The notes under the pieces were generated by a model. It saw nothing but the letters and a program-made list of their open reading frames with translations, was not told where the DNA came from and did no database searches. Shown piece by piece: positions 3,114 through 64,000 of a stretch of 64,000 bases of DNA. A program made the translations under genes and the position numbers. Location: the NCBI RefSeq assembly GCF_030296895.1, contig NZ_AP028023.1:1-64000 (forward strand), given 5' to 3'. Position 1 is the stretch's first letter. Each line of letters begins with the position of its first letter. Source of the stretch: Helicobacter felistomachi (GTDB lineage: Bacteria > Campylobacterota > Campylobacteria > Campylobacterales > Helicobacteraceae).

Positions 3114-3116
3114 GTA

Positions 3117-3993: not shown

Positions 3994-4191
3994 TCAGCCT
4001 ACATGAAAACCTGTTTGGTGTCCTTTTTCGTCATAGGTATAGACCCCACCACTCCTTTTAAGGGTTACAGAAGTTGCCGTAAATCCTACAAGCACATCTG
4101 TCGAACTCACGGTTCTTTGGAACAATTGTTTGCCTTTTTCATCCCGTACATGGAGTGCGCCACTTCTAATTTCCGCTGATCCAATCGCCAT
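3994..4191 (-). CDS. 65-aa beta-rich protein of the cassette core
   Basis: The 65-aa product is identical in all three cassettes. It has an internal two-fold repeat: GALHVRDEKGKQLFQ (about residues 11-25) and GGVYTYDEKGHQTGF (about 48-62), suggesting paired beta hairpins with a DEKG turn. No Cys, no membrane segment, no signal peptide. It resembles small hypothetical proteins of Helicobacter and Campylobacter carrying a V-Y-D-E-x-G-K motif; I know no assigned function. It always sits between the nuclease-like gene and a BspA gene. Confidence 0.72.
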   Translation of the reverse strand: MAIGSAEIRSGALHVRDEKGKQLFQRTVSSTDVLVGFTATSVTLKRSGGVYTYDEKGHQTGFHVG

Positions 4192-6827: not shown

Positions 6828-6894
6828 ACCAGCTCCCATCCAAAGCCAGCCACGCTAACCCTAAAAACAACTAAAACAACACTAGAGAGAGTTA

Positions 6895-20557: not shown

Positions 20558-20755
20558 TCAGCCTACATGAAAACCTGTTTGGTGTCCTTTTTCGTCATAG
20601 GTATAAACCCCACCACTCCTTTTAAGGGTTACGGAAGTTGCCGTAAATCCCACAAGCACATCTGTCGAACTCACGGTTCTTTGGAACAATTGTTTGCCTT
20701 TTTCATCCCGTACATGGAGTGCGCCACTTCTAATTTCCGCTGATCCAATCGCCAT
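20558..20755 (-). CDS. 65-aa beta-rich protein (cassette B)
   Basis: Protein identical to the other two copies although the DNA has silent changes (e.g. TATAAACCCC versus TATAGACCCC). Silent-only divergence suggests purifying selection and a real function. Confidence 0.72.
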   Translation of the reverse strand: MAIGSAEIRSGALHVRDEKGKQLFQRTVSSTDVLVGFTATSVTLKRSGGVYTYDEKGHQTGFHVG

Positions 20756-20871: not shown

Positions 20872-21846
20872 TTAGCTCTCTTGTGGCTCTAGTTTTAAAA
20901 TCTCCACCTTGATGTATTCTTCTAAGCTCTTAGGGCTTAGGACACTGTCAAAGGCCTGAAAGTTTGTTTGTTCGCTCATATTTGCCTTAATCGCTCCGTG
21001 ATAAAGGCTCAAGGCTTTTAAAAACTCTTGAAAATCCGGAGAGTTCTTAGACAACTCGCCTAGCATCGTGTGGTCTAAATTGTCTTTAAACCTTGCATTT
21101 AAGAGCACCTGACTTTTTTTCAAGTCCTCAGTGTTTAACACAATCACACCTATGCCAAAGCTTGCGTGCAATCGTTTGAGCAAATCCATTAAATCGTTGT
21201 CCCCAGTGTTTAGCTTTTCAGCCACTAAATAACCCTCGTTGGCCCAAGAGCTGTTGCTGATGGCTTGGAAGTAATGTTCTCTACAGTTGCTTAAATCCAC
21301 TTGCTTTTTGAGTTCAAAAGAAAAGAGTTTCAAGGGCAAAATATCAAAGTTCTCCACAAACTCACGCAAAGCCGGATCGAAGTTCTTATACGCAAAACTC
21401 GCCCCCACCATATCTGGATAAAGCCAAGAGTTTTTGCCCTGTTTGGCTTTGAGTGCGCTTTCGTGTTTAATGGTCTTGGTGTGTGCGCCCCATTTGTATT
21501 GGACAAAATAGGCTAGTAGAGGGTGCAATGTGCGTTCGTGATGGGTTTCTGCTTTATGAGAAGCTGGAGAGCTTAGTTGGGTTGTGCTCTCAACTACATT
21601 GTCCGCATATTCTTTAAGGGCAATGCTGATGGGTTTGCCCTCCACTTGCACAAAGGGCACTTCCTCCCCATTTTTTAAAGCCTTATACGCAGGGAAGTAA
21701 GTCAAATGCTCGGCTGTGCTAAACATTTTATCGATCTTGTGTGCTTTATGGAGTTCTTGCGCCCTTGTGTAAAGATCGTAAATCGACACAGGGGCTTTGG
21801 CTTCTTTGAGCACAGCTAGGACAATTTCTAGGTAGTCTTGTTTCAT
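20872..21846 (-). CDS. HARE-HTH / PD-(D/E)XK nuclease-like protein (cassette B)
   Basis: 324 aa. Three substitutions relative to A and C (S to P, T to A and H to Y, all in the linker region around residues 93-116); the PD and ELK residues and the HARE-HTH are unchanged. RBS AAGGAGAACAA before ATG, 15 nt after the SLR stop. Its conservation contrasts with the very different SLR gene upstream. Confidence 0.72.
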   Translation of the reverse strand: MKQDYLEIVLAVLKEAKAPVSIYDLYTRAQELHKAHKIDKMFSTAEHLTYFPAYKALKNGEEVPFVQVEGKPISIALKEYADNVVESTTQLSSPASHKAETHHERTLHPLLAYFVQYKWGAHTKTIKHESALKAKQGKNSWLYPDMVGASFAYKNFDPALREFVENFDILPLKLFSFELKKQVDLSNCREHYFQAISNSSWANEGYLVAEKLNTGDNDLMDLLKRLHASFGIGVIVLNTEDLKKSQVLLNARFKDNLDHTMLGELSKNSPDFQEFLKALSLYHGAIKANMSEQTNFQAFDSVLSPKSLEEYIKVEILKLEPQES

Positions 21847-24800: not shown

Positions 24801-27706
24801 CTAAAGCGCTAAAAATCGCCCCATCTGTGCTAGAGCTTTTTTGCCCCGCCGCCAGCCCCACCACCAACCGTTAAAATCATCCCAAGCCTTTTTAAGCACT
24901 TGTGTGGCGCTCTCATCAAGGACTTTTAACAAATGATCGACACCCTCACCCAATGCCTTTGCTTGCGCGTCCATGCCCTCTTTAAGCTGAGAGCATAAAT
25001 TTGTATCCACAAACCCCTCGGCTTGGAGTTGTTGGTAAGTGGGCTCTAGGTCTAAAGACGCCTTTGTAATTTCTTGCAAGGCATTTTGTAAAATAGATTT
25101 AAAGGCATCTAGGGCTATTTGCAAATTGGGGGTTTCTTTAAAGCTTAAAAATCTTTGCTCTAACGGCTTTAACACCTCATCTTCTAGGAATTTTTGAAAA
25201 GCGGGGGTGTTGTATGTCTTACCATCTCTTGCCTTGTTTGCCAGCGTGTCTAGTGCTTGGCGTGCTGGGGCTACGCCTAAACTTACATCCACCGCTTCTA
25301 ATAAGTCTCGTGCCTTTACAATCAAGCCCCCGCACGCTTCTTCAAAAGGCTTTTTGACCTGTCTTTTTTGCTCCCAAGTGAGGCCCTCTTGGCCTAAAAG
25401 GGTGTTGCACTCTTGTAACTTCTCTTGGCATTGGGACATGCCTTGTTCTAACACTCCCTTAGCCTCTATGACTTTATCATCAATGCTTTCAATGCAAGCC
25501 ATCGCCTCTTGAAACTCTAAAAGCTGTTTCTTGAAATCATTTTCATTTTCTGAGAAATTGCGTCTTTGGTACGCAGCTGTATATTCCCCAATCAGCTTGC
25601 GTAATCGTCCCACCCCAGAAACACGCGCTGTGTATTGGAGCATTCTTTTTAAATCATCAGGGAAAGAATAATTTAATCTAGATTGCAAGGCATCCCAAGC
25701 CTCCTTAGCCTCCCCCTCAATATTCCTATAGCCAATGCTCTTTTTGCCCTTTGTTTTGCACTCTTCCTTATAAAGTTGTACAAATGTGCTATAAGCCTTT
25801 TGGCAATCTAGCCTTTTAAGCTCTATATAATGCCACCACCCCTTCAGCCTCTCTGGCTCTGTGAGTTTGGGGGATGAGGCTAACAAATCAGCCACGCCCC
25901 TAGAAAAGCCATTGAGTTTGTCTTGAAACTTTTGTCTGTCTTTTTGGTAGGTGCCTAAGTCTGGAACATCGTATTTTTCAACCATCCAATCCCGATAACA
26001 CTTGTCCAAGGCTTCTTTAGTGTCCTTATCCTCAATGTTCCACCTGTATAGATTTAAAACCTCTAGGGGTTCATAATCTAAGAGATCACAGAGGACTTGG
26101 CGTTTGGCTTTAAAGACTTGCTTTTGCCGTTCTTGTTGGTCCTCAAGGGGTTTATACTGCGCCCAAAGCTCTTTAAAGGCTTGGTAATAGACCTTTAGAT
26201 TTGTCATATTTTGGCGGGCTTTGAGCGCCTTTAATTCACGGGTGGATACCATCGCTTCAGATTGGGGGCTAACATTGCTTGCCTTTAACATGCTCTCTAT
26301 GAGCGGTAGGGATTTTTCTAAGTATCTGACAGACCCCACATTGTTTAAAGCCTCTGCGCCCATTTTGGCAATGTTTTCATCCTCACTACCCGCCACAAAC
26401 GCCTTTAAACTCTCTTTTAAAGGCTCTAAGCCTTGATCTAGGGATTTATAAAGGGCATCAATTTCTTCTTTGCTCACAATGCCCTCTTTAGCCAGTTGTT
26501 TGTAAGTCTGGTCTAGAGCGCCAAGAGATTTTGTAATTTGGGCAATGACATCTTGTAGCCAAGTCTTCAACATATTTAGGGCGATTTGTGGCTCAAGGGC
26601 TAGCCCCAAGGTTTTAAAGCACTCCTCCAAGGGTTTAAGCACCTGCTTTTCTAGAGCGCTTTTAAACCCCGATTCATCGTAATTATCCGCCCTGCTTGCC
26701 TTCTCAACCCCCAAAACTTGGCGCATCACCTCTACACCCAAGCTCGCATCACACGCCTCAAATAGGGCTTGTATATCTTGCCCTAAATTCTTTGTTAATC
26801 TCTCAAAGGGTGCTTTAATTTGGTTACGCTCTTGCCAACTTTTATCTGTAGCCTGATCTAAAAGGGCAAGGTATTTGGGCAATTCCTCTTGGCACGCAGT
26901 GATTTTTTGCTCCAAGGTCTTTTTGGTCTCTAAGACTTTGGCATCTTGACTTACCACCGCCCCCAGCGCATCTTTAAGGCTTAAGAGCTTTTCTAAAGCC
27001 TTTTCATCGCAATAGATATATAAATCTACTTTGCCATTATGTGAATTGCTTACCAATTGGCGTAACGCCTGCACCCCACTTAGACCATTGGCGCATTCTA
27101 AAAGTTGGGTTAAACCCTTCATTAAGGCGTTAAAAGATTGGCTAAAAGCAGTGTAAGCACCCCTAGCCACCTCTTGCATCTCATGCCAAATGAGCTTTTT
27201 CTTTCCCTTTGTCTTGCAATCCTCTTTGTAGAGTTTGTAAAACGCTTGCCACGCTTCTAAACAACGGGCGCGCTCCAACTCGGCAAAGATAAACCAGCCT
27301 TGTAGCTTTTGAGCCTGTGTCAGTTGGGGCGTGTCTTTTAAAAGGGCTCTAGCTGTTGCCAGCATGTCTTTAGGGTCTCTTTAAATTTGTTTTGTTGTGC
27401 TTGGTAATCATCTAGAGAGGGTGTCTTGCAAGCGCCTAATGTCTCATTGACTGCTTGTAAGGGGGCATCTTCGGGCATTAAACGCACACACAAGGGCAAA
27501 ATGTCGTATCTGCAAGGATTTAAAAACCCGTAAAGCTCCGTGTTTTTAGAGCCAAACGCCTCGTTTTGTAAATCCCGTTTATGCCTTAAGGGGGCGTATT
27601 TACCCCACTTTTCTTTTAAAGCCGTGTAATGCAAGATGACATCTGTGCTCGCCTGTGTAGCGCTGCTTGCCTGCCACTGCTCGGCAATTTTTAAGACATC
27701 CAGCAT
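21862..27706 (-). pseudogene. Giant Sel1-like repeat protein, two frameshifts (cassette B)
   Basis: About 1,950 codons from MLDVLKIAEQW (27706) to WLIF (21862). Shift 1: a T3 run at 27369-27371 (one base short; restoring it joins FKETLKDM to LATARALLKD). Shift 2: in a G-rich stretch near 24835-24870, where the 854-residue N-terminal frame and the 1001-residue C-terminal frame overlap. The N-terminal two-thirds is long helical, coiled-coil-like sequence with two related halves (WHYIELKRLDCQKAYSTF / WFIFAELERARCLEAWQAF). The C-terminal third holds SLR units (AWLYLGAMSLVGVVVPP...ACFERAKELG) and a conserved end domain (EIYGGEEDYLEGLAP). SLR proteins are usually scaffolds; the ligand here is unknown. 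Confidence 0.75.
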
Positions 27707-27773
27707 ACCAGCTCCCATCCAAAGCCAGCCACGCTAACCCTAAAAACAACTAAAACAACACTAGAGAGAGTTA

Positions 27774-27928: not shown

Positions 27929-28584
27929 ATGAAAGACAACATCAGTATAGAGACCCTTTACGCACAAGTGCAAGCTTTTAAAAGCGATGTGAGAAATCTC
28001 ATATCTTTAGAGCGGCTTATATCCTATGGAAATGACATTGCCAAACACAACGCTAGTTTAGAGTTCAATGCTAGACTCACTCCAAAGATCGCCCAGGCAG
28101 AGATTTATCTAAGAAACATTGTGGATTTTTGCATGCAGTTAGTGGTTGGTAGTCCAGCTTGGATTGTAGATGCGCCTTACCTAAGCAGAGAGATAGAGAA
28201 GATCAACAAGCGTGTGAGCCGGGACAGACTCATTCGAGAGCATGTGGCTTATATACAAAGGACCGATGTAAAAGCCTACAATTCTTACTTGTTATCCAAT
28301 TTGACACTAGGGTCTATTGTGGTTGTCATCAAACAGAACCATTTGCAAAATCTGATTTTTGACTTTAGAAAGCATAGGTTAGATTTTAGAGATTTCTGCC
28401 ATCTCAATAAAAAATAGATTTAAAGCTGCCTAACTATTATAAGGTTAACATTATTGCTTATCCTAGGCTTTCTATCTATGCCCCAAGTGATAGAACAAGC
28501 CACTCTAAACGGATTGTAAGCCTTGCATACGAGAAGATTGAATACTTTTTGGAGTTTTTATTGCAACATCTAATAAACACTTAG
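27929..28584 (+). pseudogene. HEPN/Abi-like gene with A6 frameshift and active-site deletion (cassette B)
   Basis: The first 162 codons are identical to the cassette A copy and stop after the same A6 run (28409-28414). If the frame is restored with one A it runs to 28584 but lacks 26 codons found in copy A, exactly those carrying RNTCFHWENL. The result reads NYYKVNIIAYPRL. The deletion is in frame (656 versus 734 nt) and lies between short direct repeats GTCAATATTG and GACAATATTG. The product cannot be a HEPN RNase even if slippage occurs. Confidence 0.75.
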
Positions 28585-39864: not shown

Positions 39865-42800
39865 TTAGAAAAACAAATAGTCCGCACAGCCGATATAATA
39901 GTGATTCAAACTCTCCGCGCTAGAACCTATTTGCTTCAAATGTTCCCTATATCCTAGAAGCACACCTTTATACTTCTGATAATGGTGTAGAGTTTCTAGG
40001 CTTTCTCGAGGCACATCTTTTTCTTTCGTGTAGGCATTAAAACCAAGCCCTTTTTGATCCTCACAAAAGGCGATTTGCTGCTCTAAAAGCTTAATTAGTT
40101 GCATTAAAGCTCTGTAATTGCGCTGTTGCTCCCAAAAGGGTGTTAAAAGCTCTATCCACACATGGCGTTTGTCAAAAAGTTTCTGGGTTTTGAGCTTAGT
40201 CCCTTTCTCATAAAGTTCTACTAGAGCCACACCACACAGGGTTGAGCCCGCCTTTGTCCCCTTTAATAGAGACTTTTTGCGTTGGTTGTGGTAAAACTTT
40301 TCGCCTTCATCTTCAGGGTCATCAGGGGCTAAACCTTCTAAATAATCTTCCTCACCCCCATAGATTTCGCCACTAAATTCATCATTGCCTGTTTCTTCAA
40401 TGATATTTGCACGCACTTTTTGCAATGCTACAAAAAACCCATGCAATCTTCCATGCAAATCCCCCACTCCTAGTAAATAATGCCCATCCACATAGCCCTC
40501 TTTAATGGCTTGCATAATGTCTTCATAAGCTTCGTTAGCTTGATAGCGCAAGAGATTTTTTTGTTCTCGGCTGTGTAGCAGTACTAAGCTCCACACATCA
40601 GGGGCTTGACACCCAACATTTATGCGCAAGATTCCCCCCCATGCATGCATGGGCGCATCATCCTTGTTAGCCTGCTTGTTGAAAGCCTCTAAAATTTCCT
40701 CAAATTCGCTCTGTTCCCAAGCCTTAATAGAACCAAACCATCTCCCTCGATTCTCTCCCTGTTCAAAGACCCAATCTTCTATCACCACACCCTCATATTT
40801 TCTAAAAACTCCCCCACCTGCGGGTTTGCTCATTGAAAAAATACACTCTAGCCCCTCTTTTATCTCTGAACTCTTTAAGGGGGAATTATAATTAGGTTGC
40901 GGTTCTTGTTGTAATCTTTCCTGCAAGCTATCTGTGTAAGCATTTAAAGCATTATCTGCCAAATAGCTTCCATAGTAGGCCTGCAAAGAGCCTAAGTCTT
41001 TGGCCTTTTCAAAGCACACCATTGCCCCTATGGGATCAGGGGGCACGACAACCCCCAGTAAGCTCATCTTGCCTAGTTCTAGCCACGCAGAGGCATTGTT
41101 TTTATCCTTAGCCTCCATGTAGTCTTTAAAGGCTTGTTTAGTATTGTTGTCATATTGCCACAGGGGTTTAACTTTTTCTTCTGTGGCTTGGGGTTTTTCT
41201 TGAGACTTGTCTTGAGATAGACTAGCGTTTTCAAGAAAATCAGGCACGAAACTAACCGGTCCCCATTGCTTAGGGTCTTTAGCTTGGCAGGCCTGATGGA
41301 GAGCCTTCTCATAGGTCTTAGCCTGTTCTAAATCGTGGGCATATTGCGCACTCAAAGCGACATTAGGCATTTTTTTAAGCAATTCTTGTTGGGCTTGCAA
41401 TAAGTCGATCAGAGGATCAAGCGCAGCATTGAAATGGCATTGCAAAGCCTTTTTAAAACAAGTAATGGCATTGTGGTTAGCCTCTAGGTTTGCACTCTTT
41501 TTTTGCTTAGCGGGTAAAGATTTGCACATTTGCGCAAACTGATCTAGATACATGTGCCCTAGCTCTAGGGCACAACGCCCACTGCCTAACTCTACGCCAT
41601 CTTGGTAAGCCTCTTTGGCATTCTCGTAGGCTTTTTGATAATCCTCTTTTTTGGGCTTGCCATAAACTGTATCAATGGTCTTAAGCATGTTTAAATGCAA
41701 ACGGGCATTCAAGCCATCCATAGTGGCATAAACACCATCATCAAAGAGGTCTTCAAAACAAGGTTCAATGTAGTTCTCTCTGTATTCTGTATCAACACCA
41801 TATTCTTCATCTATGTGACCTTCGTAACTAAAGTGGTGTTCATGCAAACACTCCCCTTGAACCTCTTCGAGCATGACTTGCGCCTCTGCATCTGCCTCTT
41901 TAGGGTCTTTGATATAGGTTTCAAAGCTAAAAAACCTATGGGCTTGCGTGCGCTCTGATGCAGGTGCGTTTTTCACAAGGGTATCGTTCAAAGTATACAT
42001 CTCGCTGCTAAAACTGTTAAGATGTCTGAGCTTTTCTAACCCCACATAGGCACATACATCGCCCAACACCAAAGCCTTTGTAAAACACTCAAACGCTTGT
42101 TGCTTTTCTTCCAAATCTAAATACAATAGTCCTAAATGGGTCAAAGCTCTGATCGAACCTAGTTCGATCGCCTTGTCAAAATAGGAATGAGCAAGATCAC
42201 TAGATTTGGGTAACACGATGCCCTGAGCGGCCATTTTGCCTAACTCCAAACATGCTTCAGCATTGTGCACACTCTCTTTGGTATAGTCTGCATAGGCTTG
42301 GAGATTATCACCCTCGTAATCCCATAGGGGTCTAATGGCATCTCCCTCCTCGTATCTTCGTTTTTCTTGTGCAAGTTTTTCTTTTAAAAACTCTCGGATT
42401 TGCTCTACAGCTTTCAGGTCATCATTCTCCTGCGGGGCACTCAGGTGTTCTAATTTATCCAATTCAGCCCCTAAAGTGCTAAGAACTTCCTCTCTTTCTG
42501 CATTAGATTTTTCTTCAATTCCTGAAACACTATAACATAAACCATTCTCCAAAATAAAAAGAGATTCTCTAAGCATTTTATCGGTGTTTTCATCAAGGTC
42601 TTTTTTAGATAGCAAGTCGCGAACACTCGAACTTAGAGCTTTTAAAGAGGTCTCCACACTATCTCTGAGTTTAGAGTGCAAATCTCGATCGACTATTCCT
42701 TCTGCTTGGAGTTTTTGATAAGTGGGCTCTAGGTTTAAAAAAGCCTCTGTAATTTCTTGCAAAGCAATTTGCAAAATGGACTTAAAAGTGTCTAGGGCAA

Positions 42801-43977
42801 ATTGTAGATTTGGGGCTTCATTGAAATTTAAAAAGCTTTCTTCCAAAGGCTTTAACACCTCATTGTCTAGGGCTTTTTTAAAAGCGGGAGTGTTGTATTT
42901 GTTGGTCTTTAAATCTTCTCTTTTGCTCCATAAAGTGCCTTGCACTTGGCGCACTTGAGCCACACCTAAACTCGCATCCACCACTTGCAACAAAGCCTGC
43001 ACCTCTAAGATCAAGCCCTTGCACGCTTCTTCAAAGGGCTTTTTGATCTGCTCTTCTTGCTCCCAAGTGATGCCCTCTTGGTTTAAAAGGGCATTGCACT
43101 CTTGTAACCTCTCTTGGCATTGGATGATGCGTTGTTCCAACACCCCTTTAGCCTCTAACACTTTTTCATCGGCGTTTTTAATGCGAGCCACTGCCTCTTG
43201 AAACCCTAAGAGTTGTTTTAAACCCTCCTCATTATCTAAAGAAAAGCTATCGGCATATGCGCCTGTGTATTTATCAACCAGAGAGCGCAATGCACCCGCC
43301 CTAGAAATGCGCACTGTGTATTGGAGCATTTTTTTTAGGCTGTTTTCAAGAGAATCTAGGCTTGAACTCAATGCACACCAAGCCTTATAAGCCTCCCCAT
43401 CAATATTGCCATAGCCAATGCTTTTTTTGCCCTTTGCCTTGCACTCTTCCTTGTAAAGCTGGATAAAAGTGCTGTAAGCCTCTTGGCACGCCAGCCTTTT
43501 GAGCTCTATAAAGTGTGCCCACCCCTTCAGCCTCTCTGGCTCTGTGAGTTTGGGGGATGAGGCTAACAAATCAGCCACGCCCCTAGAAAAGCCATTGAGT
43601 TTGTCTTGAAACTTTTGTCTGTCTTTTTGGTAGGTGCCTAAGTCTGGAACATCGTATTTTTCAACCATCCAATCCCGATAACACTTGTCCAAGGCTTCTT
43701 TAGTGTCCTTATCCTCAATGTTCCACCTGTATAGATTTAAAACCTCTAGGGGTTCATAATCTAAGAGATCACAGAGGACTTGGCGTTTGGCTTTAAAGAC
43801 TTGCTTTTGCCGTTCTTGTTGGTCCTCAAGGGGTTTATACTGCGCCCAAAGTTCCTTAAAGGTTTTGTAATGGGACATTAGGTCTGCATAGATTTGGCAT
43901 GCTTGATGGTCTTCATATGCCTGTGTAGCGATGCTTGTCTGTAATTGCGCAGCAATTTCTAAAACATTGAACATCAT
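39865..43977 (-). CDS. Sel1-like repeat protein with long helical N-terminus (cassette C, second SLR)
   Basis: 1370 aa from the ATG at 43977 (AGGGGTGAG upstream; 7 nt after the BspA stop), uninterrupted. Residues ~30-500 are helical and match the middle of the cassette B giant (YKPLEDQQERQKQVFKAKRQ, KYDVPDLGTYQKDRQKF). Next come a hinge, then SLR units (ACLELGKMAAQGIVLPKSSDLAHSYFDKAIELGS; AWLELGKMSLLGVVVPPDPIGAMVCFEKAKDLGS), and the C-terminal domain with EIYGGEEDYLEGLAP and the end CADYLFF. Unlike A and B, this cassette has an SLR gene at both ends. It serves as the intact reference for the decayed copies. Confidence 0.78.
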   Translation of the reverse strand: MMFNVLEIAAQLQTSIATQAYEDHQACQIYADLMSHYKTFKELWAQYKPLEDQQERQKQVFKAKRQVLCDLLDYEPLEVLNLYRWNIEDKDTKEALDKCYRDWMVEKYDVPDLGTYQKDRQKFQDKLNGFSRGVADLLASSPKLTEPERLKGWAHFIELKRLACQEAYSTFIQLYKEECKAKGKKSIGYGNIDGEAYKAWCALSSSLDSLENSLKKMLQYTVRISRAGALRSLVDKYTGAYADSFSLDNEEGLKQLLGFQEAVARIKNADEKVLEAKGVLEQRIIQCQERLQECNALLNQEGITWEQEEQIKKPFEEACKGLILEVQALLQVVDASLGVAQVRQVQGTLWSKREDLKTNKYNTPAFKKALDNEVLKPLEESFLNFNEAPNLQFALDTFKSILQIALQEITEAFLNLEPTYQKLQAEGIVDRDLHSKLRDSVETSLKALSSSVRDLLSKKDLDENTDKMLRESLFILENGLCYSVSGIEEKSNAEREEVLSTLGAELDKLEHLSAPQENDDLKAVEQIREFLKEKLAQEKRRYEEGDAIRPLWDYEGDNLQAYADYTKESVHNAEACLELGKMAAQGIVLPKSSDLAHSYFDKAIELGSIRALTHLGLLYLDLEEKQQAFECFTKALVLGDVCAYVGLEKLRHLNSFSSEMYTLNDTLVKNAPASERTQAHRFFSFETYIKDPKEADAEAQVMLEEVQGECLHEHHFSYEGHIDEEYGVDTEYRENYIEPCFEDLFDDGVYATMDGLNARLHLNMLKTIDTVYGKPKKEDYQKAYENAKEAYQDGVELGSGRCALELGHMYLDQFAQMCKSLPAKQKKSANLEANHNAITCFKKALQCHFNAALDPLIDLLQAQQELLKKMPNVALSAQYAHDLEQAKTYEKALHQACQAKDPKQWGPVSFVPDFLENASLSQDKSQEKPQATEEKVKPLWQYDNNTKQAFKDYMEAKDKNNASAWLELGKMSLLGVVVPPDPIGAMVCFEKAKDLGSLQAYYGSYLADNALNAYTDSLQERLQQEPQPNYNSPLKSSEIKEGLECIFSMSKPAGGGVFRKYEGVVIEDWVFEQGENRGRWFGSIKAWEQSEFEEILEAFNKQANKDDAPMHAWGGILRINVGCQAPDVWSLVLLHSREQKNLLRYQANEAYEDIMQAIKEGYVDGHYLLGVGDLHGRLHGFFVALQKVRANIIEETGNDEFSGEIYGGEEDYLEGLAPDDPEDEGEKFYHNQRKKSLLKGTKAGSTLCGVALVELYEKGTKLKTQKLFDKRHVWIELLTPFWEQQRNYRALMQLIKLLEQQIAFCEDQKGLGFNAYTKEKDVPRESLETLHHYQKYKGVLLGYREHLKQIGSSAESLNHYYIGCADYLFF

Positions 43978-43984
43978 CTCACCC

Positions 43985-45143
43985 CTACTCATCTTCTTTA
44001 TACCACTCAGGCAATTTTTCGAGTGCGCTACACTTTGCAAACACGTGCCACATATATTTCACATTTGACACATCCCAGTTGTCTAGGGGTTGGTTGAAGG
44101 TGGTGCAACTGTCAAACATGCATCTCATGCTCTCCACATTTGACACATCCCACTTTTCTAATGGTTGATTGAAGTTGGTGCAGTGATCAAACATACCAGC
44201 CATCTTCGTAACCTTTGATACATTCCACTTGTCTAGTGGTTGGTTGAATTTTTTGCAACCACAAAACATGTTGCGCATATCTGTAACTCCAGATATGTCC
44301 CAATTGTTTAAAGGCTGGTCAAAGTTTTCGCACCCTTCAAACATATGACTCATGTCCACTACACGTGACACATCCCACTTTTCCAAAGGCTGATTGAAGT
44401 TTTCACAATCTTTAAACATCCCGCTCATATCTGCCAAATTAGATACATCCCACTTATCTAGGGGTTGGTTGAAGGTTTCGCAACTAGAGAACATCTCACT
44501 CATATTCTCAACCCTAGACACATCCCAACTCTCTAAAGATTGGTTGAAGTTGGTGCAACCATAAAACATCCTACCCATGTTTGTGGTATTTGACACATCC
44601 CAGTTATCCAAGGGCTGATTGAAGTTGGTGCACTCATAGAACATGTCCCGCATGTTTGTGGTATTTGACACATCCCAGTTATCCAAGGGCTGGTTGAAGT
44701 TGGAGCACCCTTTAAACATCTCACGCATATCTGTCACATTAGAGACATTCCACTTCTCTAAGGGGCTGATTGAAGTTGGTGCAACTAGAAAACATTTCCT
44801 TTACATTCGTGACTTTTGACACATTCCAGCTCTCCAAAGGTTGATTGAAGTTTTTGCAATCACGAAACATGCAGTGCATATTCGTAACCCCAGATACATC
44901 CCAGCTTGAAATGTCGTGGTTGAAATGTTTTGCACCATCAAATATTGCTGCCATATTTTTGACATGACTCACATCCCAAGTTTCTAAGCCTTCAAAATTT
45001 TGACGTGGACTTTGATAAAACACCCATTGCATATCCTCCACTGCACTCACATCAATCTCTCCTAAATGCACTTTTTCATCTTTGACAAGCTCTATGAGCT
45101 CTTCTCTTGTCTTGGGAAAATAGCGTTTTTGTGTGGTTGCCAT
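43985..45143 (-). pseudogene. BspA-like repeat gene with one-base insertion (cassette C)
   Basis: Head plus three units (45143-44739), then a frame change at a G4 run (44762-44765) where other units have G3; the second frame (44737-43985) continues eleven perfect units and the cap ALEKLPEWYKEDE. Removing one G gives ~386 aa. The run lies in the conserved AAGGGCTGATTGAAG repeat motif, so it may switch on and off. Followed 7 nt later by the second SLR gene. Confidence 0.78.
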
Positions 45144-45173
45144 TGTTTATCCTTTTTTTAAAATTTTGTGGGC

Positions 45174-45215
45174 GGATAGCTTGTGGCTATCCTAAAGGCG
45201 TGCCCTAGTTAGGGC
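45174..45215 (-). promoter_or_regulatory. Two-hairpin leader before BspA (cassette C)
   Basis: GGATAGC/GCTATCC and GCCCTAGTTAGGGC as in cassette A. Confidence 0.5.
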
Positions 45216-45228
45216 TTGAAATAGGGGT

Positions 45229-45426
45229 TCAGCCTACATGAAAACCTGTTTGGTGTCCTTTTTCGTCATAGGTATAGACCCCACCACTCCTTTTAAGGGT
45301 TACAGAAGTTGCCGTAAATCCTACAAGCACATCTGTCGAACTCACGGTTCTTTGGAACAATTGTTTGCCTTTTTCATCCCGTACATGGAGTGCGCCACTT
45401 CTAATTTCCGCTGATCCAATCGCCAT
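45229..45426 (-). CDS. 65-aa beta-rich protein (cassette C)
   Basis: DNA and protein match cassette A. With the nuclease-like gene it forms the invariant core of the cassette. Confidence 0.72.
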   Translation of the reverse strand: MAIGSAEIRSGALHVRDEKGKQLFQRTVSSTDVLVGFTATSVTLKRSGGVYTYDEKGHQTGFHVG

Positions 45427-45482
45427 CGTTTTTCCTTTTTTAATTTAAGCTTTGTTTCATTTCTCACACACAACCAAAACCC

Positions 45483-45500
45483 CTAGCTCTTAAGAGCTAG
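45483..45500. promoter_or_regulatory. Perfect 18-bp palindrome (cassette C)
   Basis: CTAGCTCTTAAGAGCTAG between nuclease-like and 65-aa genes. Confidence 0.5.
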
Positions 45501-45542
45501 CCTTATTAAGGCAGCACAGACATAACCACTCCTTTCTATGGG

Positions 45543-46517
45543 TTAGCTCTCTTGTGGCTCTAGTTTTAAAATCTCCACCTTGATGTATTCTTCTAAGCTC
45601 TTAGGGCTTAGGACACTGTCAAAGGCCTGGAAGTTTGTTTGTTCGCTCATATTTGCCTTAATCGCTCCGTGGTAAAGACTCAAGGCTTTTAAAAACTCTT
45701 GAAAATCAGGAGAGTTTTTAGACAACTCGCCTAGCATCGTGTGGTCTAAATTGTCTTTAAACCTTGCATTTAAGAGCACCTGACTTTTTTTCAAGTCCTC
45801 AGTGTTTAACACAATCACACCTATGCCAAAGCTTGCGTGCAATCGTTTGAGCAAATCCATTAAATCGTTGTCCCCAGTGTTTAGCTTTTCAGCCACTAAA
45901 TAACCCTCGTTGGCCCAAGAGCTGTTGCTGATGGCTTGGAAGTAATGTTCTCTACAGTTGCTTAAATCCACTTGCTTTTTGAGTTCAAAAGAAAAGAGTT
46001 TCAAGGGCAAAATATCAAAGTTCTCCACAAACTCACGCAAAGCCGGATCGAAGTTCTTATACGCAAAACTTGCCCCTACCATATCTGGATAAAGCCAAGA
46101 GTTTTTGCCCTGTTTGGCTTTGAGCGCACTTTCGTGTTTAATGGTCTTGGTGTGTGCACCCCATTTGTGTTGGACAAAGTAGGCTAGTAGAGGGTGCAAT
46201 GTGCGTTCGTGATGGGTTTCTGTTTTATGAGAAGCTGAGGAGCTTAGTTGGGTTGTGCTCTCAACTACATTGTCCGCATATTCTTTAAGGGCAATGCTGA
46301 TGGGTTTGCCCTCCACTTGCACAAAGGGCACTTCCTCCCCATTTTTTAAAGCCTTATACGCAGGGAAGTAAGTCAAATGCTCGGCTGTGCTAAACATTTT
46401 GTCGATCTTGTGTGCTTTATGGAGTTCTTGCGCCCTTGTGTAAAGATCGTAAATCGACACAGGGGCTTTGGCTTCTTTGAGCACAGCTAGGACAATTTCT
46501 AGGTAGTCTTGTTTCAT
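45543..46517 (-). CDS. HARE-HTH / PD-(D/E)XK nuclease-like protein (cassette C)
   Basis: 324 aa, identical to cassette A. RBS AAGGAAAACCT, 9 nt after the intact SLR stop, so the two are co-translated. This is the cassette with the clearest operon: SLR, nuclease, 65-aa, BspA, second SLR. Confidence 0.72.
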   Translation of the reverse strand: MKQDYLEIVLAVLKEAKAPVSIYDLYTRAQELHKAHKIDKMFSTAEHLTYFPAYKALKNGEEVPFVQVEGKPISIALKEYADNVVESTTQLSSSASHKTETHHERTLHPLLAYFVQHKWGAHTKTIKHESALKAKQGKNSWLYPDMVGASFAYKNFDPALREFVENFDILPLKLFSFELKKQVDLSNCREHYFQAISNSSWANEGYLVAEKLNTGDNDLMDLLKRLHASFGIGVIVLNTEDLKKSQVLLNARFKDNLDHTMLGELSKNSPDFQEFLKALSLYHGAIKANMSEQTNFQAFDSVLSPKSLEEYIKVEILKLEPQES

Positions 46518-46526
46518 AGGTTTTCC

Positions 46527-49500
46527 TTAGAAAAGTAGACATTTGTTGTAGTTTTTGTAATACTGACTCAGTTGTTGTGCGCTTTCTTGTCCACCCAATA
46601 GTTTATGGTAATCCTTGCGCTCTTTTAGGCATTGTTTGTAATACCCAAAAGTTTCCAAATCGGCTTTTACGATGTCCTTTTGTTTAAGGCTAGAATCAAA
46701 ACCCTTGCTCTCCTCACAAAAAGCAATTTGCGCCTCTAAAAGTTCTAAAAGTTTGCTTAAAACACGGTGGTGTCGTTGCTCTTGCCAAAAAGGTTTTAAC
46801 AGTGCGATCCACTCGCAGCGTTTAGCAAGAAGTGCGCTGGGCTCTATATCCTTACCTTCCTTGCTTTGACGCTCAATCTCTTGTTGCTGGATTTTCACCC
46901 AAGCCACAGCACACAAGCAATCTCCAAACTCTAAGCCCTTTTGTAGGCTCTCTTTGATCTTGCTGTTATAAAACTTTGTGCGCTCCTCTTCCTCATACCA
47001 AATCCGCCAATCCTCAGGCACTAACCCCTCTACATACTCATCCTCACAACTATTCCCCTGATCACTGCTGCACACGCTATCCATCGAATCATAAAACCCA
47101 TATAAGCCCAAGAGCGCCTCGTTTTCGTTTAAAATCTTAGAGCGATCTTCATACAGCAACTCTTCGCCCCCCAAGAAATAATACGCCTGTATGTAGCCCC
47201 CTTTAATCGCCTTTTGCATCGCATCATAAGCCCGATTAGAGTATAGGCGTAAGCGGTCATCGTGCTCATAGCTTTCCTCCAAATACCAATAGGGACTTTC
47301 TTCTAGACTGCCCGCATTAATCATATAAAGTCCCAGCCATGCACTCGCCTGTGCATCTCCACTTTCTGCTTGTTTCTTTAAGGTATCTATAATTTCCTCG
47401 TAAAATTCTACTTCGCATTCTTCAAATGCAAAATCTAACCCGGCTCGACCCTCACCATTAGCAACTAGATCGGTAGAAAACGCCACAGGTTTGCTAGGCA
47501 TCTTAATCCCTTCTTCCTCAAAATTTTCATTGATCAAGTTTTGTCCTACTTTTGCCTGTTCTGAGCCTAGTTCCGTAGCCTTTTTAAAGTGCTCTAAAGC
47601 TTTATGTGGATTAGGAGCGACAAAAACCCCCTGCAAATACATTTTACCCAGCTCTAGCCACGCAATAGGGTCATTTTGTTCTAGGGCTTTGGTATAGTCC
47701 TCAAAGGCTTGTTTGGTGTTTCTACCATATTGCCATAGAGGTTTTGTAGTGCTTGACTTGGGTTTAGGTTTGGCTGTGTCTAAAGCGGTGTTTGCAAAAA
47801 AGGCTGGGGAGAAACTAAAGTCTATAGGAGTTAATGTCTCTTTCTTATTTCTAGTCAAAGCACCCTCTAATGCCTTAGCAAAGGCTTTAGCTTCTTTTAA
47901 GTCATTAGTACATTGTCCGCTAAGCGCGTCTTGGTTGTACAAGTCTTTTAGCCCCTCTTTTAAAATCTCTTGTTGTTCCTCTAGGAGTTTCATTAAGGGT
48001 ACTATAGCGGTGTTGTGGTGCAAGCCTAAAGCCTTTTTAAAGTAACCAATTGCCTCATAATTGGCTTCCAATTGGGTCAATCTTTCATTTTTAAATACGC
48101 CTTTTTTTTGCGCATCTTTAAAGTGTGCCAACGCTCCTTGCCCCAACTCCAGCGCACATGCACCATTACCTAAAGCCAAGCCCTCAAGGTAACCTGCCTT
48201 CTCCCTATCATCGCACTCTTGCGCTTCATCCTTAGAGAGTCTTCCAAAGACTTTTAAAATCGCCGAGCGCACACCTGCCCCAAGCCTAGCCTCTAAAGCG
48301 CACGCCCGTGCATAGCCTGATAGGGTGTTTCCATAAGGGTTAATCTCAAATTTCCAACGCGCTTTCATCTCCTCATAGGCAGGAACGATTTTTGCCTCTG
48401 CGAAACACTCATCCACATAACCCTCTTCAGCGACATAGTCCCTGTATTTGAAATGGTGTTGATACAAACACTCTGCACTCACACACGCTAGTAAAAAGCG
48501 AGCGCGAGCATCTAAACTTTGTGAGTCATACACCCCTTTTTCAAACTCTAAATAATCCAACCCTAAAGCGTGGTTCTTAGAACACAGGGCATCGTTAAAC
48601 GCCTGCATTTCCTCTCTTAACCCCTCGCCAATTTTTCTCTCCTTGCAAAGGTGTGCGATTTTCTCCATCCCTACATAAGCGACCACATCGCCCAAGATTA
48701 AAGCCTGTTTGAGATAGCCCCAAGCCTCCCTAGTGTCCTGCTCTGTGATCTCTGCCCTGTTCAAGTAAGATAAGCCCAATTCAGTAACTGCCCGAATTGA
48801 GCCTAACTCAATGGCTTTTTTAAAATACTCCCTAGCATGTTCTAAAGAGTAGGGCAAGACCACGCCTTGCAATGCCATTTTGCCCAGCTCTAAAAAGCCT
48901 TCTGCATTGTCTTGTTCTGTGGCTTTAAGATAATCTTTGTAGGCCGACAGATTGTCGCCTTGATAAAACCAAAGAGGTTTGATTAGATCTATGTAGGGCG
49001 TGCTGGCTTTAAGAATTGCCATCGCTTTATCTAAGCGGGGCAACTCATCATCTAATATTCCTAACAATTCTAAAATGCCTTTAGCAAAGGCTCTTTGTAA
49101 GGTTTGCCGTGCCTCCTCTAAATCTTTACCCTCAAACTTTTCTTCTTTTTGTTCTCGGCTTTTGTTGTAGGTATCTTTTTTAAGCTCGAGTTTTTGCTTA
49201 AAATCCTCCAAGTGTTTAAAGCTGGATTGAAAGCCCTGTGCGATCAAACATTCTTCAGGGTCTAGGCGTTTTAAGAGAGCCTTTATGGTGTCTTTAGTGC
49301 TCTCAAGAGTTTTTTCTAAAGACTTAGTGTCGTAAGGTTCTAGTTTTTTATCTGTGTTTGCCTTTTCTTTGAGTGCTTGCACAGCTTCTTTTAGTTCTTT
49401 CAAACACACTTTGAGATTTAAAAAATCTTCACACAGAACACTTCGTTCTTGCTCTTTGGCGTGTTTGTCTTTTAAAAACTCTTGGATTTTATCCGCATCT

Positions 49501-49568
49501 ATGGAGACTTTGGCTTCTTTGCCCTCTTGCTTAGCAATGAGAGTGTCGGCAATTTCTAGGGTGTTCAT
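46527..49568 (-). CDS. Sel1-like repeat protein (cassette C, first SLR)
   Basis: 1013 aa, uninterrupted. RBS AGGGGGTTGT before ATG. Residues 1-190 are coiled coil with the family start MNTLEIADTLIAKQ; SLR units follow (GFLELGKMALQGVVLPYSLEHAREYFKKAIELGS; AWLELGKMYLQGVFVAPNPHKALEHFKKATELGS). PLWFYQGDN and PLWQYGRNTKQAFEDY mark the two SLR blocks, as in all paralogues. C-terminus ends YYKNYNKCLLF. It shares architecture but little close identity with the cassette A and B proteins, unlike the adjoining nuclease. No signal peptide; likely a cytoplasmic scaffold or sensor. Confidence 0.78.
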   Translation of the reverse strand: MNTLEIADTLIAKQEGKEAKVSIDADKIQEFLKDKHAKEQERSVLCEDFLNLKVCLKELKEAVQALKEKANTDKKLEPYDTKSLEKTLESTKDTIKALLKRLDPEECLIAQGFQSSFKHLEDFKQKLELKKDTYNKSREQKEEKFEGKDLEEARQTLQRAFAKGILELLGILDDELPRLDKAMAILKASTPYIDLIKPLWFYQGDNLSAYKDYLKATEQDNAEGFLELGKMALQGVVLPYSLEHAREYFKKAIELGSIRAVTELGLSYLNRAEITEQDTREAWGYLKQALILGDVVAYVGMEKIAHLCKERKIGEGLREEMQAFNDALCSKNHALGLDYLEFEKGVYDSQSLDARARFLLACVSAECLYQHHFKYRDYVAEEGYVDECFAEAKIVPAYEEMKARWKFEINPYGNTLSGYARACALEARLGAGVRSAILKVFGRLSKDEAQECDDREKAGYLEGLALGNGACALELGQGALAHFKDAQKKGVFKNERLTQLEANYEAIGYFKKALGLHHNTAIVPLMKLLEEQQEILKEGLKDLYNQDALSGQCTNDLKEAKAFAKALEGALTRNKKETLTPIDFSFSPAFFANTALDTAKPKPKSSTTKPLWQYGRNTKQAFEDYTKALEQNDPIAWLELGKMYLQGVFVAPNPHKALEHFKKATELGSEQAKVGQNLINENFEEEGIKMPSKPVAFSTDLVANGEGRAGLDFAFEECEVEFYEEIIDTLKKQAESGDAQASAWLGLYMINAGSLEESPYWYLEESYEHDDRLRLYSNRAYDAMQKAIKGGYIQAYYFLGGEELLYEDRSKILNENEALLGLYGFYDSMDSVCSSDQGNSCEDEYVEGLVPEDWRIWYEEEERTKFYNSKIKESLQKGLEFGDCLCAVAWVKIQQQEIERQSKEGKDIEPSALLAKRCEWIALLKPFWQEQRHHRVLSKLLELLEAQIAFCEESKGFDSSLKQKDIVKADLETFGYYKQCLKERKDYHKLLGGQESAQQLSQYYKNYNKCLLF

Positions 49569-49641
49569 ACAACCCCCTAACCTGCAAAGCTAGCCAAGCT
49601 AGCCCCACAGACAACTAAAATAACAACACTAGAGAGAGTTA

Positions 49642-49653
49642 CCCCCCCCCCCC
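49642..49653. repeat. Poly-C tract, 12 bases (cassette C)
   Basis: The shortest tract, in front of the intact SLR operon. Flanking sequence TTA...GCACAGCGCAAGTAGAG matches the other two. Confidence 0.85.
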
Positions 49654-49784
49654 GCACAGCGCAAGTAGAGCTAGGCATAGATTTCCTTTTTTTAGAAAAA
49701 TAAAAAGGCTATTGTAGCAGATTTAAATGAATTGTGGGCTTGTTTGTAAAATCACAAAGAGAAACTTAGATACTCTTACTAGTC

Positions 49785-50440
49785 ATGAAAGACAACATCA
49801 GTATAGAGACCCTTTACGCACAAGTGCAAGCTTTTAAAAGCGATGTGAGAAATCTCATATCTTTAGAGCGGCTTATATCCTATGGAAATGACATTGCCAA
49901 ACACAACGCTAGTTTGGAGTTCAATGCTAGACTCACTCCAAAGATCGCCCAGGCAGAGATTTATCTAAGAAACATTGTGGATTTTTGCATGCAGTTAGTG
50001 GTTGGTAGTCCAGCTTGGATTGTAGATGCGCCTTACCTAAGCAGAGAGATAGAGAAGATCAACAAGCGTGTGAGCCGGGACAGACTCATTCGAGAGCATG
50101 TGGCTTATATACAAAGGACCGATGTAAAAGCCTACAATTCTTACTTGTTATCCAATTTGACACTAGGGTCTATTGTGGTTGTCATCAAACAGAACCATTT
50201 GCAAAATCTGATTTTTGACTTTAGAAAGCATAGGTTAGATTTTAGAGATTTCTGCCATCTCAATAAAAAATAGATTTAAAGCTGCCTAACTATTATAAGG
50301 TTAACATTATTGCTTATCCTAGACTTTCTATCTATGCCCCAAGTGATAGAACAAGCCACTCTAAACGGATTATAAGCCTTGCATACGAGAAGATTGAATA
50401 CTTTTTGGAGTTTTTATTGCAACATCTAATAAACACTTAG
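49785..50440 (+). pseudogene. HEPN/Abi-like gene with A6 frameshift and active-site deletion (cassette C)
   Basis: As cassette B: 162 codons, TAG after A6 (50265-50270), then a continuing frame that lacks the 26 codons with RNTCFH. The same GGTTAACATT junction as in B shows one deletion event inherited by both cassettes. Confidence 0.75.
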
Positions 50441-61198: not shown

Positions 61199-64000
61199 TT
61201 AGAAAAACAAATAGTCCGCACAGCCGATATAATAGTGATTCAAACTCTCCGCGCTAGAACCTATTTGCTTCAAATGTTCCCTATATCCTAGAAGCACACC
61301 TTTATACTTCTGATAATGGTGTAGAGTTTCTAGGCTTTCTCGAGGCACATCTTTTTCTTTCGTGTAGGCATTAAAACCAAGCCCTTTTTGATCCTCACAA
61401 AAGGCGATTTGCTGCTCTAAAAGCTTAATTAGTTGCATTAAAGCTCTGTAATTGCGCTGTTGCTCCCAAAAGGGTGTTAAAAGCTCTATCCACACATGGC
61501 GTTTGTCAAAAAGTTTCTGGGTTTTGAGCTTAGTCCCTTTCTCATAAAGTTCTACTAGAGCCACACCACACAGGGCTGAGCCCGCCTTTGTCCCCTTTAA
61601 TAGAGACTTTTTGCGTTGGTTGTGGTAAAACTTTTCGCCTTCATCTTCAGGGTCATCAGGGGCTAAACCTTCTAAATAATCTTCCTCACCCCCATAGATT
61701 TCGCCACTAAATTCATCATTGCCTGTTTCTTCAATGATATTTGCACGCACTTTTTGCAATGCTACAAAAAACCCATGCAATCTTCCATGCAAATCCCCCA
61801 CTCCTAGTAAATAATGCCCATCCACATAGCCCTCTTTAATGGCTTGCATAATGTCTTCATAAGCTTCGTTAGCTTGATAGCGCAAGAGATTTTTTTGTTC
61901 TCGGCTGTGTAGCCGGCCTAAGCTCCACACATCAGGGGCTTGACACCCAACATTTATGCGCAAGATTCCCCCCCATGCATGCATGGGCGCATCATCCTTG
62001 TTAGCCTGCTTGTTGAAAGCCTCTAAAATTTCCTCAAATTCGCTCTGTTCCCAAGCCTTAATAGAACCAAACCATCTCCCTCGATTCTCTCCCTGTTCAA
62101 AGACCCAATCTTCTATCACCACACCCTCATATTTTCTAAAAACTCCCCCACCTGCGGGTTTGCTCATTGAAAAAATACACTCTAGCCCCTCTTTTATCTC
62201 TGAACTCTTTAAGGGGGAATTATAATTAGGTTGCGGTTCTTGTTGTAATCTTTCCTGCAAGCTATCTGTGTAAGCATTTAAAGCATTATCTGCCAAATAG
62301 CTTCCATAGTAGGCCTGCAAAGAGCCTAAGTCTTTGGCCTTTTCAAAGCACACCATTGCCCCTATGGGATCAGGGGGCACGACAACCCCCAGTAAGCTCA
62401 TCTTGCCTAGTTCTAGCCACGCAGAGGCATTGTTTTTATCCTTAGCCTCCATGTAGTCTTTAAAGGCTTGTTTAGTATTGTTGTCATATTGCCACAGGGG
62501 TTTAACTTTTTCTTCTGTGGCTTGGGGTTTTTCTTGAGACTTGTCTTGAGATAGACTAGCGTTTTCAAGAAAATCAGGCACGAAACTAACCGGTCCCCAT
62601 TGCTTAGGGTCTTTAGCTTGGCAGGCCTGATGGAGAGCCTTCTCATAGGTCTTAGCCTGTTCTAAATCGTGGGCATATTGCGCACTCAAAGCGACATTAG
62701 GCATTTTTTTAAGCAATTCTTGTTGGGCTTGCAATAAGTCGATCAGAGGATCAAGCGCAGCATTGAAATGGCATTGCAAAGCCTTTTTAAAACAAGTAAT
62801 GGCATTGTGGTTAGCCTCTAGGTTTGCACTCTTTTTTTGCTTAGCGGGTAAAGATTTGCACATTTGCGCAAACTGATCTAGATACATGTGCCCTAGCTCT
62901 AGGGCACAACGCCCACTGCCTAACTCTACGCCATCTTGGTAAGCCTCTTTGGCATTCTCGTAGGCTTTTTGATAATCCTCTTTTTTGGGCTTGCCATAAA
63001 CTGTATCAATGGTCTTAAGCATGTTTAAATGCAAACGGGCATTCAAGCCATCCATAGTGGCATAAACACCATCATCAAAGAGGTCTTCAAAACAAGGTTC
63101 AATGTAGTTCTCTCTGTATTCTGTATCAACACCATATTCTTCATCTATGTGACCTTCGTAACTAAAGTGGTGTTCATGCAAACACTCCCCTTGAACCTCT
63201 TCGAGCATGACTTGCGCCTCTGCATCTGCCTCTTTAGGGTCTTTGATATAGGTTTCAAAGCTAAAAAACCTATGGGCTTGCGTGCGCTCTGATGCAGGTG
63301 CGTTTTTCACAAGGGTATCGTTCAAAGTATACATCTCGCTGCTAAAACTGTTAAGATGTCTGAGCTTTTCTAACCCCACATAGGCACATACATCGCCCAA
63401 CACCAAAGCCTTTGTAAAACACTCAAACGCTTGTTGCTTTTCTTCCAAATCTAAATACAATAGTCCTAAATGGGTCAAAGCTCTGATCGAACCTAGTTCG
63501 ATCGCCTTGTCAAAATAGGAATGAGCAAGATCACTAGATTTGGGTAACACGATGCCCTGAGTACCATTTTGCCTAACTCCAAACATGCTTCAGCATTGTG
63601 CACACTCTCTTTGGTATAGTCTGCATAGGCTTGGAGATTATCACCCTCGTAATCCCATAGGGGTCTAATGGCATCTCCCTCCTCGTATCTTCGTTTTTCT
63701 TGTGCAAGTTTTTCTTTTAAAAACTCTCGGATTTGCTCTACAGCTTTCAGGTCATCATTCTCCTGCGGGGCACTCAGGTGTTCTAATTTATCCAATTCAG
63801 CCCCTAAAGTGCTAAGAACTTCCTCTCTTTCTGCATTAGATTTTTCTTCAATTCCTGAAACACTATAACATAAACCATTCTCCAAAATAAAAAGAGATTC
63901 TCTAAGCATTTTATCGGTGTTTTCATCAAGGTCTTTTTTAGATAGCAAGTCGCGAACACTCGAACTTAGAGCTTTTAAAGAGGTCTCCACACTATCTCTG
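61199..64000 (-). pseudogene. Sel1-like repeat gene, partial, frameshifted (fourth cassette edge)
   Basis: Near-identical to the 3' two-thirds of 39865-43977 and cut by the window end. Frame changes at ~63561-63565 (GAGTACC here, GAGCGGCC in the other copy), giving 61199-63586 and a separate frame to 63990. A second cluster near 61914 changes VL to GR. Whether a complete cassette D continues to the right cannot be seen. Confidence 0.75.

Follow-up and report, generated by a model that had tools for sequence, protein, structure and literature searches.

In Helicobacter pylori, the HrgA protein (a homologue of Campylobacter jejuni cj1602) has been reported to replace the restriction gene hpyIIIR (PMC4615327, PMC4687069), and hrgA has served as a marker gene. 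The parts of the literature that we searched report no activity for HrgA. HARE-HTH domains, which members of the HrgA family match, have been proposed as readers of modified DNA (PMC11037411). Here, we describe a cassette that encodes an HrgA in Helicobacter felistomachi (genome of 1.89 Mb). The window that we analyzed is 64,000 nucleotides long (bases 1-64000 of contig C2, which has 86,195 bases), and it contains several copies of the cassette: a leader open reading frame (ORF) with a run of G, a gene for a large protein with Sel1-like repeats (SLR), a gene for a 324-amino-acid (aa) HrgA, and a gene for a 65-aa protein (p65). The reading that we favor, with a little less than even confidence, is that the cassette is a phase-variable operon for a DNA-restriction nuclease of the HrgA type.

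Runs of G near Sel1-domain genes have been noticed before. In H. bizzozeronii CIII-1, a 17-G tract at HBZC1_10620/10630, which encode a Sel1-domain protein, marks a candidate phase-variable gene (PMC3234257). This tract may be the same element as the poly-G leader described here; it is given as lying within the gene ("M"), and the portions of that report available to us name no leader ORF, HrgA, or p65. RepG-tlpB of H. pylori also has a variable G run in an mRNA leader, but in our cassette the run is inside a leader ORF with frame-dependent stops. Clusters of frame transitions have been classed as either phase-variable genes or translationally coupled pairs (PMC3711429), and the H. felistomachi cassette combines features of both.

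Among named plasmids, the closest is the 17.5-kb pASB1 of H. heilmannii. It carries genes for two BspA-like proteins, a 65-aa protein, HrgA, and a repeat protein, as well as a divergent 162-aa gene and a Rep gene, in the same order as here. The whole cassette and the Rep gene are common to both; pASB1 is a single 17-kb unit, whereas H. felistomachi has four related units within one 86-kb contig. Because pASB1 has the full set, and because SLR-HrgA-p65 recurs in other species, the cassette is not a chance arrangement. In the literature that we searched, whose coverage is partial, we found no description of an SLR-HrgA-p65 operon or of p65 beside HrgA, and likewise none of a phase-variable leader ORF laid out in this way. 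HrgA, Sel1 repeats, DUF285, and phase variation are all known already.

A gene order that recurs in gastric Helicobacter

The leader ORF-SLR-HrgA-p65 order is found repeatedly in gastric Helicobacter, on chromosomes as well as on plasmids. In the window, the best example is unit C, in which the features are as follows:

49711..49716, minus strand: TACAAT, identified by eye as a candidate -10 box for transcription of SLR, HrgA, and p65
49577..49678, minus strand: leader ORF, with its ATG, a 12-G tract (49642-49653), and a frame end 8 nucleotides (nt) before the SLR start
46527..49568, minus strand: SLR giant, 1013 aa, a single ORF (Pfam Sel1, 5.9e-12)
45543..46517, minus strand: HrgA, 324 aa, with a HARE-HTH-like N-terminal part and a PD-(D/E)XK-like C-terminal part (P144 D145, E178 K180)
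45229..45426, minus strand: p65, 65 aa, all-beta in its model, with two propeller-blade-like halves

We surveyed linkage in 121 Helicobacteraceae genomes, counting broken copies. HrgA matches occur in 75 of these genomes and p65 in just 15. There are 26 places with a p65, and at 17 of them it lies on the same strand as an HrgA match and 22-232 bases downstream of it. SLR sequence is found upstream of HrgA at 15 of the 17 linked loci (at the H. suis C15 locus, as a 52-aa remnant only). The two without it are G032:C7, where HrgA itself is cut, and G032:C24, which is at a contig end. A BspA gene follows p65 at six linked loci (one of these is a 58-aa remnant), and the divergent 162-aa gene is present at four (at least three loci, G004, G013, and G032:C24, have a short flank or none). 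These two genes look like local additions. The initial annotation had treated the BspA protein as a core part of the cassette, which these counts do not support. It had also expected the nuclease-like and 65-aa genes to keep SLR and DUF285 neighbors in other genomes, and here the outcome is mixed: most HrgAs are without these partners, and it is the HrgAs adjoined by p65 that regularly have SLR.

In an HrgA tree of 54 rows, those linked to p65 form one clade with support of 100/99; they are 12 rows for 8 different proteins, because some loci are included twice. (The broken HrgAs of the H. felistomachi chromosome, G003, G004, G010, and G032 were left out.) The HrgA of H. pylori shares a family name with these proteins, but the p65-linked HrgAs in the tree are a separate clade. 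For 104 of the other HrgA places, the lack of partners is judged from the genome counts above (p65 in just 15 of 121).

The linked loci are of two types. Type I loci have a large SLR without an evident signal sequence, then HrgA and p65; they include the units in the window, pASB1, loci in H. bizzozeronii, H. suis, and H. cynogastricus, and the H. felistomachi chromosome at 1.159-1.165 Mb (with HrgA in two pieces). Type II loci have an SLR with a lipoprotein-like start, sometimes a second SLR with a secretion-like start, then HrgA and a fused p65 of ~225-287 aa that is joined to a membrane segment and TPR-like repeats (the N-termini were judged by eye). Type II loci are found in H. labacensis, H. 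baculiformis, G014, and G010, and at 1.185 Mb of the H. felistomachi chromosome (with a broken HrgA). At the H. suis C15 and G032:C24 loci, p65 is of the type II form.

We reject a general pairing of p65 proteins with HrgA. Nine of the 26 p65 places are more than 500 bases from an HrgA (two of these share a gene, and another has HrgA pieces 3.8 kb away), and type II sets without HrgA are present at C1:1680 of H. felistomachi and in G002. These HrgA-less sets count against an operon built around HrgA. Since SLR and the membrane form of p65 persist there, they fit instead with a host-interaction operon, in which SLR (and BspA) are what matters, phase variation serves surface or secreted antigens, and HrgA and p65 are passengers. 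The lipoprotein-like and secretion-like starts of type II SLRs point the same way, surface proteins are often under phase variation (PMC3711429), and one Sel1-repeat protein of H. bizzozeronii is listed as extracellular (PMC3234257). However, inspection by eye, with no prediction program, shows no signal peptide in the type I SLRs or in the BspA proteins. In addition, HrgA has kept its catalytic residues and appears more constrained than p65 (see below), and it stands between SLR sequence and p65 at 15 of the 17 linked loci. We consider a host-interaction operon unlikely.

The G tract within the leader ORF

The initial annotation placed a poly-C run in a hypervariable promoter region. The tract does vary greatly in length, but it is not in the promoter proper: the coding strand reads the poly-C of the plus strand as poly-G, and this run is within a conserved leader ORF, behind a -10-like box, a ribosome-binding site, and an ATG. 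All 14 leaders that we examined have an AAGGA site ahead of the ATG and a distance of 23-25 nt from the ATG to the tract; upstream of the ATG, most of the leaders compared have a -10-like box (by eye). After the tract, most leaders have TAACTCTCTCTA, where one frame ends immediately and another after three codons (later in a few leaders). A remaining frame is open for ~17-33 codons, and its end falls anywhere from 9 bases ahead of the SLR start codon to 16 bases into or past it. In the H. felistomachi chromosomal leader, the open frame runs 44 bases past the SLR start.

Across loci, the tract has 8-23 G. Three records of H. heilmannii ASB1 have tracts of 13, 14, and 15 G, so all three frames are covered. 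At the recorded tract lengths, the frame that reaches the SLR start is the one read in units C and D and in G014, and not in the other 10 of 13 SLR leaders. We counted the frames that reach the SLR start or end at most 9 bases short of it: in 10 of 13 SLR leaders there is one such frame, and the other frames stop at least 15 bases before the start.

Exact matches to the leader pattern number 13 and come from 9 of the 34 genomes of the genus, and a reversed control has none. Among 398 genomes sampled from the order, it is in three, all of this genus. An SLR gene follows at 10 of these 13 places (units A-D, the H. felistomachi chromosome, G008, G010, G013, G014, and G033). The other three were rejected as SLR leaders: G009 has a 52-aa ORF after the pattern, G032:C5 is decayed sequence, and G003:C67 has no such leader. 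In G009 (C1:144000-154000; L250), the 52-aa ORF behind the poly-G leader has a membrane-like start and is unrelated to SLR. Separately, G030 has another leader copy, whose tract is 6 G long, directly before a 401-aa HrgA ORF (at ~3.7 kb of C1:679000-690000; L259).

If the cassette is a phase-variable operon, slippage of the tract would move translation of the leader between frames, and only the frame that ends at the SLR start would let ribosomes re-initiate on SLR-HrgA-p65 (translational coupling). Several observations tell against this mechanism. In 3 of the 13 SLR leaders (G013, G030, and G031), two frames reach the SLR start. When we shuffled the tract-to-start sequence of 10 leaders, exactly one start-reaching frame arose in 15-53% of shuffles; because single-locus shuffles yield one so often, the open leader frame is not significant on its own, and the leaders share ancestry. 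Differences in tract length between records can be sequencing errors. Also, SLR starts are seen by eye to have their own purine-rich sequence, which may make coupling unneeded.

Another explanation is that the G tract acts at the level of RNA or the promoter, by folding or by binding a small RNA specific for G repeats, and not via the leader frame. The tract is predicted to be mostly paired, and in H. pylori the small RNA RepG targets a variable G repeat in the leader of tlpB (PMC8295292). But the layout of ribosome-binding site, ATG, and post-tract stops is conserved across divergent leaders, and no known RNA family was found at Rfam gathering scores in the window, the one part of the genome that was scanned. 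We judge an RNA-level effect to be somewhat unlikely. If coupling does operate, the leader is a testable design for phase variation, in which ribosome re-initiation is switched and the gene itself is left unbroken.

HrgA, p65, and a possible restriction role

By sequence similarity, the 324-aa protein is a member of the HrgA family. It is 99.4% identical over its full length to WP_053825854 ("HrgA protein") and 34-35% identical, over 54-56% of its length, to HrgA-named proteins of Vibrio and others. The suggestion that it is a candidate nuclease with HARE-HTH and PD-(D/E)XK parts is supported as regards the type of protein, and the PD...ExK residues are kept in this named family: when 50 members, drawn from many phyla, are aligned, P144, E178, K180, and Q194 are present in all 50, and D145 in 49. 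The AlphaFold2 model (mean local confidence, pLDDT, of 86.7) has a helix at 104-119, strands at 122-125, 146-151, and 172-183, a helix at 188-199, and a strand at 204-212. The canonical order of the PD-(D/E)XK core is a-b-b-b-a-b (a, helix; b, strand). The predicted elements of HrgA have this order as well, with PD just ahead of strand 2 and ELK within strand 3, which fits such a core. HARE-HTH (PF05066) matches 41 of the 50 family members.

Intact copies of HrgA appear to be more constrained than p65. The ratio of nonsynonymous to synonymous rates (dN/dS) is 0.02-0.06 among plasmid copies of HrgA that differ by 14-16 changes, and 0.08-0.19 between species where dS is finite, although dS is saturated there (1.06-2.5). 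Several other HrgA copies are broken; frequent breakage together with strong constraint in intact copies can be counted as indirect support for a restriction role. Other indirect support comes from the replacement of hpyIIIR in H. pylori, from a Vibrio plasmid on which an HrgA is flanked by S and R within a type I restriction operon, from the neighbors of other HrgAs, and from the presence of HrgA relatives in 57 IMG/VR contigs. Among 110 neighbors of 59 of 80 HrgA loci, the recurring Pfam families include ResIII (3), DpnII (2), D12 methyltransferase (2), and HSDR_N (2), among the first 25 of 138 families; this count had no background control, which weakens it.

The p65 protein is identical across units A, B, and C. 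Its model has a pLDDT of 94 and contains strands only. The list of Foldseek matches is headed by propellers (best E of 0.024) and includes 6r5x, a propeller built from two-blade fragments (E of 0.038), and a sequence search of the PDB gave weak chains only (E of 0.35 and above), some of which are propellers. As modeled, p65 could be two blades, which may assemble into a ring. Relatives of p65 occur in distant bacteria. On Rhizobium and Thermus plasmids (L029 and L030), a p65 relative is at most two genes from a gene for a hydrolase with the metallo-beta-lactamase (MBL) fold. Nine stretches in IMG/VR fit a p65 pattern, and none is a true relative.

On the other side, structure searches gave neither HrgA nor p65 a PDB match at E ≤ 0.001. 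Of the PD-(D/E)XK fold proposed at the outset, the order of elements is found in the model and a match to a known structure is not; the weak Foldseek matches of HrgA include EcoT38I, HamA, YaeQ, MUS81, and XisH, and are a mixture of restriction-type, winged-helix, and unrelated chains. Pfam's HARE-HTH does not match the HrgA of the window itself, and the breakage of several HrgA copies can be held against a restriction role too. We saw no methyltransferase among the proteins of the window that were scanned with Pfam (9 in one scan and 7 in another; not every ORF was scanned). Other resources were silent or nearly so. PADLOC gave no match for HrgA or p65, PHROGs gave none for these two or for an intact 162-aa relative, PDB sequence searches gave none for HrgA, and NCBIfam gave HrgA nothing but matches far below their cut-offs.

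Could HrgA and p65 be a toxin and its antidote that maintain the plasmid, with HrgA as a self-toxic nuclease and p65 (computed isoelectric point of 9.3) as a small inhibitor? HrgA and p65 are tightly linked, the plasmid units carry them in several copies, and some loci have a broken HrgA and an open p65. However, the nine p65 places beyond 500 bases of HrgA do not fit this idea, nor do the many HrgAs without p65, and on the four non-Helicobacter plasmids examined, no p65 relative adjoins an HrgA. We think that a toxin-antidote pair is quite improbable.

In a restriction operon, HrgA would recognize and bind incoming or wrongly modified DNA with its winged helix and cut it with its nuclease part. 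SLR and p65 would be its partners, with SLR as a helical scaffold and p65 as an oligomerizing propeller that docks or restrains HrgA, and the membrane segment of type II p65 would put the complex at the membrane. The outcome would be a switchable barrier against phage, plasmid, or transforming DNA. A more specific version is that the homopolymer in the leader ORF switches the whole defense operon by coupling and thereby drives an SLR-HrgA-p65 machine, in soluble and membrane-anchored forms, in which a self-assembling two-blade propeller controls the nuclease. This is possible, but we lean clearly against holding all of it together. If there is such a barrier, it bears on how gastric Helicobacter balance gene uptake against defense. 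And a lineage that keeps HrgA in a fixed operon, together with two partners and behind a leader of variable length, is a place to probe the activity and partners of HrgA.

A further HrgA-like stretch is within a 438-aa ORF at G000:C4:11912-12523 (plus strand), on a 13-kb contig (C4) of the source genome.

Plasmid units and neighboring genes

Contig C2 may be four related Rep_3 plasmid units in series (a cointegrate), or else a product of assembly merging. Pfam finds Rep_3 initiators at 29430-31055 and 52231-54468, and DNA identity reveals stretches related to these regions in unit A (10.9-12.4 kb, with fragmented ORFs) and in unit D (68.8-70.3 kb). Iteron-like repeats of 21-22 bases are at 8473, 29288, and 52025. 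The ORFs bear out three complete cassettes with the same gene order and strands (units A, B, and C), each with SLR, HrgA, p65, and BspA plus the divergent 162-aa gene. The proposed partial fourth cassette, unit D (~60.6-67.4 kb of the contig), has only the leader, SLR pieces, and the 162-aa gene; similarity searches of the contig gave no HrgA or p65 match in it. The features of these units, other than those of unit C given above, are:

6895-6913, minus strand: unit A G tract, 19 G, from the sequence
5368..6839, minus strand: unit A SLR, two ORFs (271 and 228 aa; ORF list)
4308..5282, minus strand: unit A HrgA, by similarity, 100% identical to that of unit C
3994..4191, minus strand: unit A p65, by similarity
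1742..3908, minus strand: unit A BspA-like ORFs (263 and 387 aa), by DNA repeat family
7045..7533, plus strand: unit A 162-aa ORF, stops ahead of the motif
27774-27796, minus strand: unit B G tract, 23 G, from the sequence
21862..27718, minus strand: unit B SLR, three ORFs (126, 854, and 1001 aa; ORF list)
20872..21846, minus strand: unit B HrgA, by similarity, 99% identical
20558..20755, minus strand: unit B p65, by similarity
18940..20472, minus strand: unit B BspA protein, 510 aa (DUF285 1e-255, PARCEL repeats)
27929..28417, plus strand: unit B 162-aa ORF, stops ahead of the motif, 78 nt absent
44739..45143, minus strand: unit C BspA-like piece 1, by a repeat common to the unit B DUF285 protein
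43985..44737, minus strand: unit C BspA-like piece 2, of the same DNA repeat family
39865..44040, minus strand: second SLR giant, 1391 aa, without a poly-G leader, by DNA identity to the unit D SLR
49785..50273, plus strand: unit C 162-aa ORF, stops ahead of RxxxxH, 78 nt of the following region absent
61199..63990, minus strand: unit D SLR pieces inside the window
66789-66803 of the contig, beyond the window: unit D leader with its G tract, 15 G, from the sequence

An SLR giant is present in every unit, as the initial annotation had it, but it is a single ORF in unit C only and is fragmented in A, B, and D. These frame breaks may be real, or they may be homopolymer sequencing errors. The cassette of unit C had also been drawn to begin at 39865, and 39865-44040 proves to be the second SLR gene. 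Most of this gene is covered by a 99.7% identity between 39247-43871 and 60581-65202, which matches it to the unit D SLR. The assignment to PARCEL and DUF285 is a profile match for the unit B protein, and in units A and C it is by DNA repeat family only.

The divergent 162-aa gene had been taken for an RNase of the HEPN type. We reject this role: in all four copies, the ORF stops before any RxxxxH, and 78 nt of the region after it are missing from units B and C. (Truncation was judged against an intact relative, P0015, which has R-N-A-C-F-H.) Pfam found no HEPN or Abi match even for intact relatives, and PADLOC gave a single weak match for the 162-aa ORF (RT_UG4, E of 0.013). A "CAAX amino protease" on a plasmid of H. 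pylori SouthAfrica7 is 31% identical over 96% of the 162-aa ORF, but the copies in the window stop short of the motif region. We presume that the family is akin to Abi/HEPN proteins, which Pfam did not confirm. Many other copies, several of them broken, are on the H. felistomachi chromosome (for example, C1:860224-860708, 919578-920002, 963572-964056, and 977106-977584), and the gene behaves like one that has been acquired repeatedly.

These results bear on a proposed conflict system of five parts, with SLR and BspA as sensors and with HrgA and a HEPN RNase as effectors. The order of the five genes does recur in three units and in pASB1. But the 162-aa gene is not seen at the linked loci of other species where the flank is available, and BspA is infrequent there, in addition to the lost motif and the lack of Pfam support. 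The HEPN part is largely refuted, and the five-part system as a whole is highly improbable. A conflict function for the cassette is still plausible.

Some other genes in the window stand apart from the cassette. A 553-aa ORF at 8904-10565 (minus strand) has a serine-resolvase N-terminal domain joined to a TnpB-type protein, and we take it to resemble a fused tnpA and tnpB of the IS607 kind. At 821-1547 and 18009-18735 (plus strand), there are two copies of a small ORF followed by an acetyltransferase-like ORF, the first of which matches phrog_1758; judging by their sequences, these are probable toxin-antitoxin pairs. Near-identical 268-aa ORFs are present in two units, at 36260-37066 and 58040-58846 (plus strand), and the first matches NikA-like mobilization proteins.

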